The position numbers were made by a program, and so were the translations under genes. From positions 857,538-921,537 of the forward strand of contig NZ_CM001440.1 of NCBI RefSeq assembly GCF_000244975.1: a stretch of 64,000 nucleotides of DNA, written 5' to 3'. Under the pieces are notes generated by a model, which was not told the DNA's origin, ran no database searches, and saw only the letters and a list, made by a program, of their open reading frames with translations. How positions within the stretch are numbered: position 1 is the stretch's first letter; each line of letters begins with the position of its first letter. This stretch comes from Saccharomonospora cyanea NA-134. GTDB taxonomy: Bacteria > Actinomycetota > Actinomycetes > Mycobacteriales > Pseudonocardiaceae. Shown in pieces: positions 38,159-44,178 of this stretch.

Positions 38159-38641
38159 ATGGCGAAGGAAGTCGGTCAGAAGGTGATCGCGTCGAACCGG
38201 CGTGCCCGGCACGACTACACGATCATCGACACCTACGAGGCCGGAGTGGCGCTCGTGGGTACGGAGGTGAAGAGCCTGCGCGCGGGCAAGGCGTCGCTGG
38301 CCGACTCGTTCGCGACCGTGGACGACGGCGAGGTGTTCCTGCGGGGCCTGCACATCCCGGAGTACTCGCACGGCACGTGGACCAACCACGAGCCGCGGCG
38401 GACGCGCAAGCTCCTGCTGCACCGCAAGGAGATCGAGAAGCTGATCGGCAAGACGAAGGAGTCCGGTCTCAGCCTCGTGCCGCTCTCGCTGTACTTCAGG
38501 GACGGCAAGGTCAAGGTCGAGTTGGCGTTGGCGAAGGGCCGCAAGGCGCACGACAAGCGGCAGGCCATCGCCAAGCGCGACGCGCAGCGCGAGATGGCGC
38601 GCGCGATGGGACGGGCGGCGAAGGGCAAGTACCGCCGTTGA
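38159..38641 (+). CDS. smpB: SsrA-binding protein SmpB
   Basis: A 160-residue RNA-binding protein that brings tmRNA to stalled ribosomes. Typical segments are [34 protein letters not shown], and the basic C-terminal tail [19 protein letters not shown] that enters the mRNA channel. ATG at 38159. Its partner ssrA lies 5 kb downstream at 43802. The stop codon overlaps a TTG start for the next gene. Confidence 0.96.
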
Positions 38642-39585
38642 GCGTCGCCGACGATCACCACGGGCCCGGTCCGCGGTCCGACGAGGACGTGGCGGACTGG
38701 GTGCGTGGACTCGGCCTCGACGGGATCGTGGACGTCCACGTGCACTTCCTGCCCGAGCGGGTGCTGCGCAAGGTGTGGGCGTACTTCGACGACGCCGAAA
38801 AGCACTACGGCCTGCGGTGGCCGGTGTACTACCGGCTGCCGCAGCCCGAGCGGCTGGCCGTACTGCGGTCGCTCGGGGTGCGGGCGTTCGCGCCGCTGGT
38901 GTACCCGCACAAACCGGACATGGCCGAGTGGCTCAACACGTGGGTGCGCGAGTTCGCCGCCGACGTGCCCGAGGCCGTCCCCACCGCGACGTTGTTCCCC
39001 GAGCCCTCCGTGGCGACCTACGTGGAGGAGGCTCTGACCGCGGGTGTGCGATGTTTCAAGGCGCATGTGCAGGTGGGCGCCTACGATCCCCGCGACGCGG
39101 CGCTCGACCTCGCGTGGGGGCTGATCGCGGACGCCGGTGTGCCCGTCGTGGTGCACTGCGGGCACGGGCCGCTGCGGGGTGAGCACACCGGCATCGAGGT
39201 CTTCGAACAGGTGTTGAACCGGCATCCGCGGTTGGTGGCGGTGCTCGCGCACGCGGGCATGCCCGAGTACGACGCCGCACTGGAACTGGTGCGGCGGTAC
39301 CCCAACGTCCACCTGGACACCACGATGGTCGGCGTGCCGTTCACCGAGGGGTTCATGCCCATGCCCGCCGCCTGGCCGAGCCGGCTGGTCGACATCGCCG
39401 ATCGGGTGGTGCTGGGGACCGACTTCCCGAACATCCCGTACTCCTATGCCACCCAGTTGCGTGCCGTGGCGTCGTGGGCGGAATCGCACCCGGGCCTGGG
39501 GCAACCGTTCCTGCGTGCGGTGCTGCACGACACGCCGTCGCGGTTGCTCAGGCAGGCACCGGCGTCCGGGACCGGACGCGGGTGA
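38638..39585 (+). CDS. Amidohydrolase-2 family protein
   Basis: A 315-residue metal-dependent TIM-barrel hydrolase. The metal motif is [10 protein letters not shown] near residue 32, further histidines lie in [15 protein letters not shown] and [10 protein letters not shown], and the C-terminal acid in [13 protein letters not shown]. The TTG at 38638 overlaps the smpB stop (TTGA); GTG at 38689 is the alternative start. Substrate unknown; related enzymes act on aromatic acids or lactones. Its end overlaps the convergent acyltransferase by 38 bases. Confidence 0.82.
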
Positions 39586-40813
39586 GGGCGTAGGCGCAGA
39601 CGACCAGGGCGATCCACGGCCACGGCGCCGAGGAGAATCCCGTGGCGGCCAGCGCGAGTGTGCCCGTGGCGCCGAGCAGCGCCGCGACACAGAGCCGGGG
39701 CGTGGAAGTGGGCCCCGAGTGCGGCACGTGGGTCTCGAACCGGCCGAACACCCGTAGCAGCACGGCCAGGATGGCGCCGGCCGACAGCAGCCAGCCCGGG
39801 GCCGTGGCGAACCACGTGATCGTGCCTGGAAGTGGTGTCGCGTAGTCGAACCAGAGCACCGTCACACCCGTGAGCACGATCAACGCGGGCATGTGCCACA
39901 GGTACACGCTCATGAACCGGCTGCCGAGCCAGCCGAGGGTCGAGGCGATCGCGGGTCGTTCTGCCCACGTCGTCAGGAATTCGCGGGCGGCGAGAGTGAG
40001 ACCGATCTGGCCGACGGCGAGGGACACCAGGACAACGGCGGGAGGGCTCATGTTGGACATCGGAGCGCCAGGCATTCCGATCATGCTCGCCACGTACGGG
40101 CCGAAGGCCACGAGGAGTGCGGTCACGCCGAACCCGGCCGCCGACACGGACAGGGCCGCACGGCGGGACAGGCGTCGGAGCGTCCCGTCGGAGTAGAAGA
40201 AACCGAGCTGGTGCACGGCGAACCAGACGAAGACCGCGTTGGCGTAGCCGACGTAGGGCATACCGTCGAAGCGGGCGGCGTCCACCACGGCCGCCAAGGC
40301 CGCGAGCACCGCGGGAACGGCCCAGCGCCAGCGTCGGTGGGCGGCGACGAGCAGCGGCGTGGCGAGCACGGTGATCAGGTAGACGCCGAGGAACCACAGA
40401 AGCTGTGCCGCGATCGAACTCGCCAGCGCCACGGGCTGCTCAGGGGCGCCGAGCAGCCGCAGCACCGGTGGAACGGCCGTCCAGACGGCGAGGAGCGGCA
40501 GCACCGGAAGCAGGAGCCTGCTCAGCCGCCTCGACAGCCACGAGCGGGCCGTGGTGGCACGGGTCAGCGACAGGTGGTTGGCGGCCCCACCGGTGAAGAA
40601 CACGAGAGGCATGACCTGTGACAACCACGTCACGATCCACCATCCGGGCGTGGTGAACGCGTTGCCGGCGGTGAGCAGACCGTCGGTGTAGCCGAGCACC
40701 GGCATGGTCCAGTGCTGGACCACCACGGCCACGATGGCCAGTGCGCGGACGACGTCCAGGAAGCGGTCTCGGGTGGGCACCACGGTCGCCGTTCTCGGCG
40801 CACTCAAAGTCAT
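39548..40813 (-). CDS. Acyltransferase-3 family membrane protein
   Basis: A 421-residue membrane enzyme with about ten helices, of the acyltransferase-3 family that acylates envelope sugars, lipids or small molecules. The catalytic-type histidine is in ALAIVAVVVQHWTMP near residue 33; the second family marker is RLSRLLLPVLPLLAVW. ATG at 40813. The promoter region carries an 18-bp palindrome, also present before the two-component operon, and five 11-bp repeats. That suggests control by the nearby response regulator. Its substrate is unknown. Confidence 0.85.
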   Translation of the reverse strand: MTLSAPRTATVVPTRDRFLDVVRALAIVAVVVQHWTMPVLGYTDGLLTAGNAFTTPGWWIVTWLSQVMPLVFFTGGAANHLSLTRATTARSWLSRRLSRLLLPVLPLLAVWTAVPPVLRLLGAPEQPVALASSIAAQLLWFLGVYLITVLATPLLVAAHRRWRWAVPAVLAALAAVVDAARFDGMPYVGYANAVFVWFAVHQLGFFYSDGTLRRLSRRAALSVSAAGFGVTALLVAFGPYVASMIGMPGAPMSNMSPPAVVLVSLAVGQIGLTLAAREFLTTWAERPAIASTLGWLGSRFMSVYLWHMPALIVLTGVTVLWFDYATPLPGTITWFATAPGWLLSAGAILAVLLRVFGRFETHVPHSGPTSTPRLCVAALLGATGTLALAATGFSSAPWPWIALVVCAYALTRVRSRTPVPA

Positions 40814-40870
40814 GATCGAATCGTGGCGTGCCCGGCGGCGGAAAACAGCGGTGCGAGCCGGTGTCTTGAA

Positions 40871-40888
40871 GGTGGGGTTGTCCCTACC
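40871..40888 (-). promoter_or_regulatory. 18-bp palindrome upstream of the acyltransferase gene
   Basis: On the minus strand the site reads GGTAGGGACAACCCCACC, 58-75 bases before the ATG. A near copy, GGTGGGGACAGCCCTACC, lies before the sensor/kinase/regulator operon at 43680-43697. Both fit GGTRGGGACARCCCYACC with dyad symmetry. Probably the binding site of the response regulator encoded at 41046. Confidence 0.65.
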
Positions 40889-40905
40889 GTGTCGGCCACC
40901 ACAGT

Positions 40906-40960
40906 GGACACACCGGGGACACACCGGGGACGCACCGGGGACACACCGGGGACACACCGG
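40906..40960. repeat. Five-unit 11-bp tandem repeat
   Basis: Five head-to-tail copies of GGACACACCGG, the third with one change (GGACGCACCGG). It lies 93-147 bases upstream of the acyltransferase ATG and 85 bases from the 3' end of the response-regulator gene. One turn of helix per unit would place every copy on the same DNA face. No coding sense was found. Confidence 0.9.
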
Positions 40961-41045
40961 CACGGGCGGCATGGCGAAGCGAGCGCGTCGGCGCCGGGAA
41001 CCCCGGTTCGCTTTCCGCGGTCCCCACTCACCCACCGTCGGGGCT

Positions 41046-41687
41046 TCAGCGTCCGAGATAGGTCAGCACGGCACGGACCCGGCGGTGCTCCGTGTTGCTG
41101 CTCTCCAGGCCGAGCTTGGCGAAGATGTTGCCGATGTGCTTCTCCACGGCACCGTGTGACACGACGAGCCGGGAGGCGATGGCGCTGTTGGTGAGACCCT
41201 GCGCCATGAGGCTCAGCACCTCGGATTCGCGCGGGGTGAGCGAATCCAGCGGGTTCCGGCGCCCCCGCGCCATGAGTTGGCTGATCACTTCGGGGTCGAT
41301 CGCCGTGCCTCCGGACGCCACGCGCCGCACGGCGTCCAGGAACTCGGCCACGTCGGCCACGCGTTCCTTCAGCAGGTAGCCCACGCCACCCGCGCCGCCG
41401 GAGAGCAACTCCACCGCGTACGTCTCCTCGACGTACTGCGACAGCACCAGCACCGGCAGACCCGGCACGAGCTGCCGCGCCCGCAGCGACGCCCGCAGCC
41501 CCTCGTCGGTGAACGTCGGGGGCATCCGCACGTCCGCGATCGTGAGATCCGGACGGTGCTGCTGAACCGCCTCTATCAGGTCATCGCCGTTGTCCACAGC
41601 GGCCACCGTCTCGACGCCGTCGTCGGCCAGCAGCCGCTGCACCCCCTCCCGCAACAGGACGGCGTCCTCCGCGATGACCACGCGCAT
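41046..41687 (-). CDS. NarL/LuxR-type response regulator
   Basis: A 213-residue two-component regulator. The receiver domain has acidic residues VIAEDAV (8-14), the phospho-acceptor aspartate in DLTIADVRMP near residue 55, and lysine in LLKERV. The DNA-binding LuxR domain is LTPRESEVLSLMAQGLTN, then AIASRLVVSHGAVEKHIGNI. It follows the kinase gene by 27 bases in the same operon. The palindrome shared by this operon and the acyltransferase gene is its most likely target. Confidence 0.93.
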   Translation of the reverse strand: MRVVIAEDAVLLREGVQRLLADDGVETVAAVDNGDDLIEAVQQHRPDLTIADVRMPPTFTDEGLRASLRARQLVPGLPVLVLSQYVEETYAVELLSGGAGGVGYLLKERVADVAEFLDAVRRVASGGTAIDPEVISQLMARGRRNPLDSLTPRESEVLSLMAQGLTNSAIASRLVVSHGAVEKHIGNIFAKLGLESSNTEHRRVRAVLTYLGR

Positions 41688-41714
41688 GTGTACTCCCCAG
41701 GTGTGCGATACAGC

Positions 41715-42899
41715 TCACCACGTACACGGCAGGTCCGCTCGGACGACGGTGGGGCCGCCGGGTGGGCTGACGACGGAAACGGTGCCGTCTATGGTCGCAG
41801 CCCGGTCGGCGAGGCCCGCAAGGCCACCACCGGGTCGTAGACTCGCGCCGCCCTTACCGTCGTCGGTCACCTCCACCACGACGGTGTCGCCGTCGCGCCA
41901 CACCCTCACGGAGGCCCGGTCGGCTCCGGAGTGCTTGGCGATGTTGGTCAAAGACTCACCCACGATGAAGTAGGCCGTCGTCTCCACGGCCGCGGGAGGG
42001 CGGGGCTCCACCTCCACCGTCACGTCGACGGGAATGGGCGATTTGGCGGCCTGCGCGGACAGCGCCGCGTCGAGGCCCCTGTCGGCCAGCACGGCGGGGT
42101 AGATGCCCCTGGCGAGGTCGCGCAGCTCCGACACCGCGAGTTTCGCGTCGGAATGCGCCTCGTCGATCAGCTCCCGCAGCGCGTCGGTGTCGGGTCGAGT
42201 ACCAGCGCCGACCTTGGCCTTCGCCCGGCCCAGGGTCATGGCCACCGAGACGAGTCGCTGTTGCGCGCCGTCGTGGAGGTCGCGTTCGATGCGTCGTCGT
42301 TCGGCCTCGGCCGCGTCCACGCCGCGCGCCCGCGACGCTTGCAGCCGCTGGGCCCGCGCCTCCGCCCTCTGCGCCTTCGGAGGTCCGAGCAGGGCGGAGG
42401 CGAGCTGGGCGTGCAGCCATCCGAGCGTCGGCATCACCCAGATCGCGACCGGCACGAGCAGGATGGCCACCAGACCCACGGCGAACTCGACGATTCCGAT
42501 GGGGAAGGCGAGCATCAGGTACGCGAGGTCGCGCCACGTCGTCGGATCGGTCGCCCGGGTCAACCAGCGTCGGCCCCACCCGCCGTCACCGCGTGCGCGT
42601 TCCGCGTCGGGGACGCTCACACCCAGTGTCCGCCGTACCCATGCCCGTTCCAGGTCGCCGAACGCGCGCACGAGCCAGATCGTCGCCGTCAGGATCGGGA
42701 TACCGATCCAGATCACGACGGTGGCGACCCCGATCAACGTGCCGCAGACGATCAGCACGAACTGGACGAGTCGCAGCGGGAAGCTCGCGATCATGAAAAG
42801 GAGGGTGAGCCACCCTCGTGGTCGCTCCGGTGAGCCCGCCGATGAACTTTTGGGGTCTGCGGAAGCCTTGTTCGGCATGCGCACATTCTCCGTGGTCAC
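41715..42899 (-). CDS. Sensor histidine kinase with N-terminal sensor domain
   Basis: A 394-residue HisKA_3-type kinase. The first 160 residues form a membrane 'sensor' domain with four hydrophobic segments, similar to the upstream stand-alone protein. The phospho-acceptor histidine is in ERRRIERDLHDGAQQRL near residue 215. The ATPase domain has IVGESLTNIAKHS (N-box), EVTDDGKGG and GGGLAGLADRA. The GTG at 42899 overlaps the upstream stop (GTGA), showing coupling; an ATG seven codons in is the alternative. Confidence 0.92.
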   Translation of the reverse strand: MTTENVRMPNKASADPKSSSAGSPERPRGWLTLLFMIASFPLRLVQFVLIVCGTLIGVATVVIWIGIPILTATIWLVRAFGDLERAWVRRTLGVSVPDAERARGDGGWGRRWLTRATDPTTWRDLAYLMLAFPIGIVEFAVGLVAILLVPVAIWVMPTLGWLHAQLASALLGPPKAQRAEARAQRLQASRARGVDAAEAERRRIERDLHDGAQQRLVSVAMTLGRAKAKVGAGTRPDTDALRELIDEAHSDAKLAVSELRDLARGIYPAVLADRGLDAALSAQAAKSPIPVDVTVEVEPRPPAAVETTAYFIVGESLTNIAKHSGADRASVRVWRDGDTVVVEVTDDGKGGASLRPGGGLAGLADRAATIDGTVSVVSPPGGPTVVRADLPCTW

Positions 42900-43594
42900 G
42901 GGCGCACCGGGAACGGGGCCGTCTCGGTGTCGTCCGCGTCGAGCTCCCGCATCCGGTTGAACGTCGGACCCAGCATCGCCTTGGCGAAGCGCGCGTGCGC
43001 CGCCCCGAGTCCACGGGTCAGCAGTGCCGTGCACACCAGCAACAGCACACCGAGCGCCGACCACGGCAGGGCCGTCCAGACGGAGTCGACCGTCACCCAG
43101 CGCAGCGAGACGTCATGCGACGGGAAGTGCCACGCGCCACCGGGGAGGAACCGGTAGTAGACCGGCAGCGCGAGGAGAGCCAACGAAACACTCCACGTCG
43201 CGACCATCAGCACGAATTCCGCGATACCCAGGGGGAACAGCAGGAACAGGTAGACGTACTCCCGCCACGTCGCCGAGTCGGTGAGCCGGGTCCGCCACCG
43301 TTGCTTCAGACCTCCCTGCGGCAACGGCCTGGTCGAGGGCGGGATGTAGGCGCCGAGCAGGGCGTACACGCGGGCTCGCTCCACGTGGGCGGCTCCCCTC
43401 GTCAACAGCACCGTACCGGCGAGGACCGGCAGGCCGATCCACACGATGGCGGTGCCGATCCCGAAGACGGTCAGCGTCAGCAGCACCACGAAGGCGGCGA
43501 CACCGATGGGGAAGCTCAACAGCAGGTAGGTGAGTGAGCCCGCGACCGAAGGACGGCCGCGCTCGTGGTCGTCGTGGGACCGTACCGTCGACAT
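42896..43594 (-). CDS. Stand-alone sensor-domain membrane protein
   Basis: A 232-residue membrane protein with the same layout as the kinase's N-terminal part: SFPIGVAAFVVLLTLTVFGI against the kinase's FPLRLVQFVLIVCGTLIG, then RARVYALLGAYIP, then a TWREYVYLFLLFPLGIAEF segment against TWRDLAYLMLAFPIGIVEF. So the two are paralogous. ATG at 43594 has AAAGGA upstream. It is the first gene of the operon and may pair with the kinase as a sensing heteromer or act as an accessory, as LiaF does in Firmicutes. The signal is unknown. Confidence 0.85.
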   Translation of the reverse strand: MSTVRSHDDHERGRPSVAGSLTYLLLSFPIGVAAFVVLLTLTVFGIGTAIVWIGLPVLAGTVLLTRGAAHVERARVYALLGAYIPPSTRPLPQGGLKQRWRTRLTDSATWREYVYLFLLFPLGIAEFVLMVATWSVSLALLALPVYYRFLPGGAWHFPSHDVSLRWVTVDSVWTALPWSALGVLLLVCTALLTRGLGAAHARFAKAMLGPTFNRMRELDADDTETAPFPVRP

Positions 43595-43679
43595 GGCTGG
43601 AACGTCCTTTCGCTCTCTCGTCCGTCCCAGCATCACCGAGCAGGGCCCCTCCGGCCATCAGGCCTGCTGGTCTCGTGGG

Positions 43680-43697
43680 GGTAGGGCTGTCCCCACC
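43680..43697 (-). promoter_or_regulatory. 18-bp palindrome upstream of the sensor-kinase-regulator operon
   Basis: On the minus strand GGTGGGGACAGCCCTACC, 86-103 bases upstream of the sensor ATG. It matches the site before the acyltransferase gene at 15 of 18 positions, and both keep the dyad. It suggests autoregulation of the operon. Confidence 0.65.
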
Positions 43698-43701
43698 CTG
43701 A

Positions 43702-43725
43702 GGTGTGTGGGGAGGTGTGTGGGGA
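43702..43725. repeat. Two-unit 12-bp tandem repeat
   Basis: Two copies of GGTGTGTGGGGA lie next to the palindrome at 43680. The complement, TCCCCACACACC, shares the CACACC core with the 11-bp repeats at 40906, so both promoter regions pair a palindrome with a GT/AC-rich repeat. Confidence 0.7.
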
Positions 43726-43801
43726 CGTCGGCCCACGGGAATTATCGGGTTGCGCCCCGCGTTATCCTTGGTGCAGTGATCGGAAGAGATCAGCTGAACT
43801 A

Positions 43802-44171
43802 GGGGGTGAACGGTTTCGACTCTGGACGTTGATCCAGGGGAAGCGTGCCGGTGCAGGCAACGACCACCGCAAGCGTCGTCGCAATAAATACAAGCGCCAA
43901 GACGAACAGTCAGCGCGACTTCGCCCTCGCCGCCTGAGCGACGGTGAAGTCTGTCGGCCCGGGGACGCCTCCGCCCCGGTTCGCCGGCATCAGCTAGGAG
44001 GCTCACCGCCGGTTCCGGCCACGGGAACCGGTTGGGAAGCGAACAGTGGCTGGGCCCGTCACACCGGCTCGTTCGCGTGACCGGTGGGGCCGAGCAGAGA
44101 CACAGCGAACTGCGCACGGAGAAGCCCTGGAAAGGCGGCAGAGGACCCGGGTTCGATTCCCGGCACCTCCA
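43802..44171 (+). ncRNA. ssrA: Transfer-messenger RNA (tmRNA)
   Basis: A 370-base tmRNA. The 5' end GGGGGTGAACGGTTTCGACT pairs with the 3' GCACCTCC end to form the tRNA-like acceptor stem; the T-loop GGTTCGATTCC is intact. The tag-coding part likely resumes at GCA near 43882 and reads AINTSAKTNSQRDFALAA before TGA, the last five residues being a typical degradation signal. The exact resume codon is inferred. It works with SmpB (38159). A strong terminator follows. Confidence 0.95.
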
Positions 44172-44178
44172 CGACCGG

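Follow-up and report, generated by a model that had tools for sequence, protein, structure and literature searches.

A palindromic operator shared by a putative three-component envelope-stress operon and a membrane acyltransferase gene in Saccharomonospora cyanea

In a 64,000-nucleotide stretch of the Saccharomonospora cyanea NA-134 genome (contig NZ_CM001440.1, positions 857,538 to 921,537; hereafter the window), two 18-base-pair (bp) palindromes on the minus strand precede a sensor operon and a gene for a stand-alone acyltransferase-3 (AT3) membrane protein. The comparative data are best explained if the response regulator of the operon binds the palindrome, regulates its own operon and controls the acyltransferase gene. 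We consider it quite probable, on sequence evidence, that these genes represent a three-component envelope-stress operon whose regulator binds GGTRGGG-N4-CCCYACC and increases transcription of both this operon and the acyltransferase gene. A preliminary description of this DNA had reported the two sites and their identity at 15 of 18 positions (GGTAGGGACAACCCCACC compared with GGTGGGGACAGCCCTACC), which proved exactly correct, and had placed the start codons of the acyltransferase and sensor genes at 40813 and 43594 and the regulator gene at 41046 (to 41687), where they were also found. It had further described a two-component system with its sensor at 43594. A sensor gene does start there; however, the sensor, kinase and regulator genes are adjacent, so the operon consists of three genes, and the kinase is encoded by the next gene and not by the one at 43594. 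The features are collected in Table 1.

Table 1. Operators, genes and promoter-region features of the locus (window positions).
Feature	Position	Strand	Basis or remark
Operator 1, GGTGGGGACAGCCCTACC, 85 bp upstream of sensor ATG	43680..43697	-	exact match
Operator 2, GGTAGGGACAACCCCACC, 57 bp upstream of acyltransferase ATG	40871..40888	-	exact match
Stand-alone Sensor-domain membrane protein, 232 amino acids	42896..43594	-	PF13796 full profile 1-162, E 3.4e-40
Sensor-type histidine kinase, truncated Sensor domain, 387 amino acids	41715..42878	-	PF13796 1-113 of 162, HisKA_3, HATPase_c
NarL/LuxR-type response regulator, 213 amino acids, presumed reader of both operators	41046..41687	-	Response_reg + GerE
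Stand-alone AT3 membrane protein, 421 amino acids	39548..40813	-	PF01757, E 1.8e-24
Candidate -10-like hexamer GATGCT, sensor operon	43629..43634	-	offsets +46 to +51 after motif
Candidate -10-like hexamer CACGAT, acyltransferase	40820..40825	-	offset from operator equals that of sensor operon
11-bp tandem repeat, 5 copies, incidental	40906..40960		repeat scan
12-bp tandem repeat, 2.2 copies, incidental	43700..43725		repeat scan

Conservation of the palindrome before the sensor and acyltransferase genes

In order to follow the palindrome beyond this genome, genomes with species names were scanned, and the best 80 of 217 loci were kept, with genera including Saccharomonospora, Prauserella, Amycolatopsis, Actinokineospora, Thermocrispum, Nakamurella, Glycomyces, Streptosporangium and others. 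The main gene-by-gene count covers the first 72 of these loci and a motif with 0-1 mismatch at most 400 bp upstream of the gene. The motif preceded 70 of 71 stand-alone sensor genes, the exception being that of Prauserella rugosa (L184), and 43 of 59 acyltransferase genes. For other genes the count was 7 of 675, with the motif before none of 76 regulator, 55 amidohydrolase and 52 smpB genes, 6 of 399 unassigned genes and 1 of 76 kinase genes; this one kinase gene (L203) comes first at a locus without a sensor gene. At the eight loci outside the 72-locus count (L204-L211), the motif (0-1 mismatch) stood upstream of a sensor, kinase or acyltransferase gene in six and was missing from this position in L205 and L207. 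A further 18 Pseudonocardiaceae loci showed the motif at 0-1 mismatch before all 12 acyltransferase genes and before 13 sensor genes (12 exact, one with one mismatch), although this count and the 72-locus count are not independent because seven of the 18 loci, and six of the 12 acyltransferase loci, recur in the 80-locus set. The first 18 comparison genomes were chosen for a good sensor or kinase match with a nearby motif (G019, with a sensor-like gene and only a 1-mismatch motif, was placed in the comparison group), and hence the early genome comparison is not an unbiased test. The preliminary description had named absence of the motif before the orthologues as a point that would speak against it; the motif was found before both orthologues in relatives, and the proposed co-regulation of sensor operon and acyltransferase is well supported by these counts, by the motif number tracking the regulator and by the return of the acyltransferase, kinase and motif together in other families, both described below.

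The dyad GGTRGGGACARCCCYACC that the preliminary description gave as shared is present exactly at both window sites, but its central ACAR varies in relatives. Since the N4 spacer was variable across 74 sensor and 45 acyltransferase sites, these central letters were rejected as part of the recognition sequence. Separately, at L086:4290-4991, smpB adjoins a diverged gene of the Sensor type that has a 1-mismatch operator, the kinase and regulator genes not being beside it.

For other actinomycete families, 296 genomes were searched across the class, and the 29 best-matching acyltransferase homologues from genomes other than that of the window were examined. A kinase homologue adjoined the acyltransferase at 12 of these loci, in divergent as well as operon-like arrangements, and in 11 of the 12 the fetched piece contained the motif, which was exact in 10. 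The other 17 loci comprised four with an exact motif, two with a 1-mismatch motif and 11 with none. At L206 and L208, both from Streptosporangiaceae, the acyltransferase and kinase genes diverge, with one site between them. Distant acyltransferase homologues (34-40% identity) showed the exact motif at none of 18 loci, with one 1-mismatch match, indicating that the pairing belongs to one acyltransferase group and not to AT3 proteins at large. Regulator- or kinase-like genes (27-45% identity) were found beside three of these 18 loci. A related system there was rejected on the absence of the exact motif and of a Sensor domain in the two kinases tested.

Association with the regulator and the genes headed by the motif

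An automatically drawn sample of 200 Pseudonocardiaceae genomes was used to relate motif number to the regulator. Orthologue cut-offs (E <= 1e-105 for the regulator, at a visible gap, and E <= 1e-112 for the acyltransferase) were both set after the match lists had been seen. The 107 genomes with a regulator orthologue contained 352 exact motif sites compared with 99 for a reversed-pattern control, and the 93 genomes without it contained 56 compared with 76; at least one exact site was present in 106 of the 107. In this sample the exact motif is above background only where a regulator orthologue exists. An acyltransferase orthologue occurred in 56 of the 200 genomes, 54 of which carried the regulator. 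The corresponding p values (Mann-Whitney, about 1e-27 for motif count by regulator presence, with 0.20 for the control pattern; Fisher, about 3e-16 for the acyltransferase) overstate independence because the genomes are related.

A different DNA-binding protein could in principle read the palindrome, with the operon and the acyltransferase as mere co-targets. Binding by the regulator is deduced from sequence, and a subset of sites with AT-rich spacers (for example GGTAGGGATATCCCTACC) heads other genes and perhaps has its own reader. We nevertheless regard this alternative as very unlikely, given that, in the 200-genome sample, the motif exceeds its control only in regulator-bearing genomes, and that it accompanies Sensor-type kinase genes in other families and arrangements.

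With the spacer left free, GGTRGGGN4CCCYACC matched three sites in the 5,408,301-bp genome and its reversed control none. The third site (G000:C1:4999936-4999953; L117:2937-2954) lies just upstream of a gene whose membrane-type product matches no Pfam family; two homologues of this gene in other genera are also motif-headed (L096, L115). To identify further genes headed by the motif, 64 exact sites were grouped according to the gene downstream of each; they came from 64 fetched loci, of which one held two sites and another none. Forty of these regulon loci were hand-picked among the matches listed, sites beside the regulator gene being left out. The largest group, 13 sites, precedes MacB/LolD-type ATP-binding cassette (ABC) ATPases, seven of them at 57-58 bp after the motif, with FtsX-type permeases accompanying the two checked and the nearest NCBIfam models below cut-off in the one tested. 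Additional sites precede DUF2306 membrane proteins (7 sites, two tested), Drr-type ATPases (3 sites; drrA was nearest, below cut-off, in the one tested), MMPL-type proteins encoded divergently to S8 peptidases (3 sites, one pair tested), DUF4097 (Toastrack) proteins (2 sites, both tested), DUF998 proteins (2 sites, one tested) and a VTT-domain protein (one site). Many further sites head genes seen only once. The preliminary description had named the acyltransferase as a target besides the operon itself; that link stood, but the regulon appears wider, taking in ABC exporters, MMPL, DUF2306 and DUF4097 proteins. The AT-rich-spacer subset heads extracytoplasmic function sigma factor genes (6) and Hsp70-like genes divergent from genes for small HisKA_3 proteins (5 and 6 genes, with one tested from each), and these sites may be read by a different protein that recognizes the same half-sites. 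Mostly AT-rich-spacer motifs were seen at L244, L250, L254, L257, L260 and L273 and at L107, L243, L249, L251 and L261.

The acyltransferase scored 86.8 bits against PF01757 (gathering cut-off 31), and no solved relatives were found by sequence. AT3 signatures are given as R/K-X10-H and RxxR (PMC9558356), and both are present here as R23-X10-H34 and R96xxR99; among 13 aligned acyltransferases R96 and R99 are invariant and R23 and H34 nearly so. The enzyme probably acylates an extracytoplasmic glycan or lipid. Alternatively, it may act on a toxic small molecule or antibiotic in self-protection. Several recurrent targets are of exporter type, and the hosts include species of Amycolatopsis, among whose members are known makers of antibiotics. 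The role described for AT3 proteins is mainly the modification of surface sugars (PMC9558356), and we consider the self-protection role rather unlikely, with an envelope glycan or lipid as the favored substrate.

Beyond the relatedness of the genomes, several observations weigh against control by the regulator as outlined above. One regulator-positive genome (G366) lacks an exact site, and two acyltransferase-positive genomes lack the regulator at the cut-off used, yet their acyltransferase genes are motif-headed (L300 with 1 mismatch, L301 with 0). Single motif matches may be spurious because chance predicts nearly one exact site per genome, and nine of the 64 sites have no downstream gene or lie inside a gene, as chance matches would. 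The acyltransferase motif is eroded (at least 2 mismatches) or gone in 15 of 58 gene-bearing loci, all from Amycolatopsis (L154, L155, L157, L160, L164, L167, L168, L170-L174, L181, L182 and L197), where the operator has decayed and the acyltransferase has been kept. Fourteen of the 72 loci, some cut by contig ends, show no acyltransferase in the fetched DNA, so the acyltransferase is a frequent and not an obligate output. Within the window, a scan allowing up to 3 mismatches gave three matches (operators 1 and 2 as the only exact ones, and one with 3 mismatches) compared with 0.50 expected, a count that is weak evidence by itself because 3 of 100 window shuffles also reached three. Such shuffles, and control counts near one per genome, are what a chance match of two palindromes in GC-rich DNA would draw on; however, both positions are conserved over dozens of genomes and the 72-locus count stands strongly against chance, which makes this explanation extremely improbable.

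Promoter geometry and surrounding DNA

The motif lies at preferred distances from the start codons. With repeated loci included, the distance was 57 or 79-82 bp in 43 of 57 acyltransferase genes and 81-87 bp in 43 of 87 sensor genes, and among the 64 genes at further sites 11 had it at 57/58 bp. Many of the start codons come from simple in-house gene calling, and an individual distance may therefore be in error. Alignment of 74 sensor promoters on the motif showed two conserved blocks, one at +18 to +25 (CACCATGG) and one at +47 to +53 (+47 and +49 to +53). The second block is likely a -10-like element, and we infer that the 57-bp register reflects leaderless starts, which would fit the acyltransferase. 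Activation is favored by the placing of the operator at some distance upstream of the likely promoter, a usual position for an activator. The sign of regulation is not fixed by sequence conservation, and the same regulator might bind both operators as a repressor, with release on a change in phosphorylation. This operator position argues against repression, and positive autoregulation is common in LiaR/VraR-type systems; we therefore judge repression unlikely and retain activation as the expected mode.

The preliminary description had also pointed to tandem repeats beside both palindromes. The repeats exist, but they are not a conserved part of the promoters: inspection by eye of five acyltransferase and six sensor regions of same-genus relatives found none matching, though a different short repeat occurs in one of these relatives (L083). 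Repeats as extra operators were rejected on this basis. A further element, GTCCACTGTGG (minus strand, 40899-40909), stands upstream of the acyltransferase operator at a distance of 10 bp. By eye, it was seen 10-20 bp upstream in L077, L082 and L083, with a related element further up in L078 and none in L079.

The system and the acyltransferase sit between two parts of ribosome rescue (38159-44172). The transfer-messenger RNA gene (ssrA, 43802-44172) is just upstream of the sensor operon, and smpB (38159-38641, NCBIfam equivalog) lies beyond an amidohydrolase gene on the acyltransferase side; smpB is also near the system in many related loci.

A proposed divided sensor and its relation to known systems

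Kinases differed in their Sensor domain according to the presence of a neighboring sensor gene. Those without such a neighbor matched the whole PF13796 profile (4 of 4, and 5 of 5 tested from other families, where the Sensor domain is complete), whereas those with it matched only the first 107-136 positions (6 of 6), the window kinase matching 113. When three sensor proteins were aligned with eight kinases, four of them short and four long, a block of about 58 columns was absent from the short kinases and kept elsewhere. Additionally, the distance between two anchors was 82-83 residues in 62 of 62 kinases with a recognized sensor neighbor (six loci counted twice) and likewise 82 in five kinases whose sensor gene escaped the neighbor test, compared with 124-133, or 42-51 residues longer, in five kinases without a sensor gene (L084, L085, L090, L093 and L203); these counts leave out seventeen kinases without the first anchor. 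A model of the sensor protein (mean predicted local distance difference test score, pLDDT, 85.6) is helical with two short strands at residues 155-169, and the region lost from the kinase contains these strands between long helices. This region presumably faces outward. The simplest reading, by analogy with the accessory proteins of LiaFSR-like systems, is that the stand-alone Sensor protein took over detection. We put at about even the chances of the full proposal, namely a widespread split-sensor envelope-stress system of actinomycetes in which a loop-less kinase relies on its Sensor paralogue and a previously undescribed operator, GGTRGGG-N4-CCCYACC, controls exporters and an envelope acyltransferase.

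Among known systems, LiaFSR and VraTSR of Firmicutes are the closest in design. The regulator contains a PF00072 receiver and a PF00196 GerE helix-turn-helix, both above cut-off, shares 73-93% identity with 15 aligned orthologues and is NarL-type, its closest solved chains being VraR followed by DevR. The HisKA_3 kinase, the extra membrane protein encoded before it, the signature of autoregulation and the two DUF4097 genes among the targets in relatives are also shared, DUF4097 being a partner of Lia/PSP systems according to PMC11237479. However, the extra membrane protein here is a PF13796 paralogue of the kinase's own sensor domain, the operator differs and the output includes an acyltransferase. 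In Pfam the partner matches only PF13796, and it matches no NCBIfam family, LiaF or VraT types included; the kinase scored 45.6 bits against a LiaS equivalog cut-off of 450. EsrISR of Corynebacterium glutamicum is likewise an actinobacterial three-component envelope-stress design, with a partner of a different family.

The regulators OsdR and DevR (DosR) are also NarL-type and act on GGG/CCC-rich palindromes, but the OsdR consensus in PMC5069765, AGGGCCGATCGGCCCT, has the form GGG-N8-CCC, whereas the operator here is GGG-N4-CCC flanked by GGTR/YACC. A DevR/OsdR box was rejected on this half-site spacing. MacRS, MadRS and MctRS showed weak kinase and regulator similarity far under the curated NCBIfam cut-offs and were rejected (bits/cut-off: MadR 106.4/300, MadS 58.4/500, MacS 50.5/300, MctS 97.9/700, MctR 85.5/300), and no known NCBIfam regulator came near its cut-off. 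The acyltransferase resembles stand-alone AT3 proteins in its PF01757 domain and both signatures. A search of open-licence PMC literature, with most subscription papers outside its scope, found no account of this operator or of its sensor/acyltransferase pairing, in agreement with the preliminary description, which knew of none. The design is LiaFSR-like, with a distinct partner, operator and acyltransferase output, and is apparently undescribed.

In the mechanism we propose, the kinase and the stand-alone Sensor protein, each of them integral to the membrane, would detect membrane disturbance, and the kinase would phosphorylate the NarL-type regulator. A regulator dimer would then bind GGTRGGG-N4-CCCYACC, in most cases 57-87 bp ahead of the start codon, and raise transcription of its own operon (43594-41046) and of defense genes. 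In this genome, the predicted targets are the AT3 acyltransferase and the membrane-type protein whose gene follows the third site; those of relatives would also include MacB/LolD-type and Drr-type ABC exporters and MMPL, DUF2306 and DUF4097 proteins. The acyltransferase would modify an extracytoplasmic glycan or lipid. The signal is probably envelope stress or antimicrobial attack, because the targets include exporters, MMPL and DUF4097 proteins and the regulator is VraR-like.

The operator sequence would make the regulon predictable in genomes of Saccharomonospora, Prauserella, Amycolatopsis and Actinokineospora, and the proposed system would tie a stand-alone AT3 acyltransferase to a defined signal pathway. 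Finally, a loop kept in one protein and lost in its partner may represent a natural experiment on handing signal detection to an accessory membrane protein.

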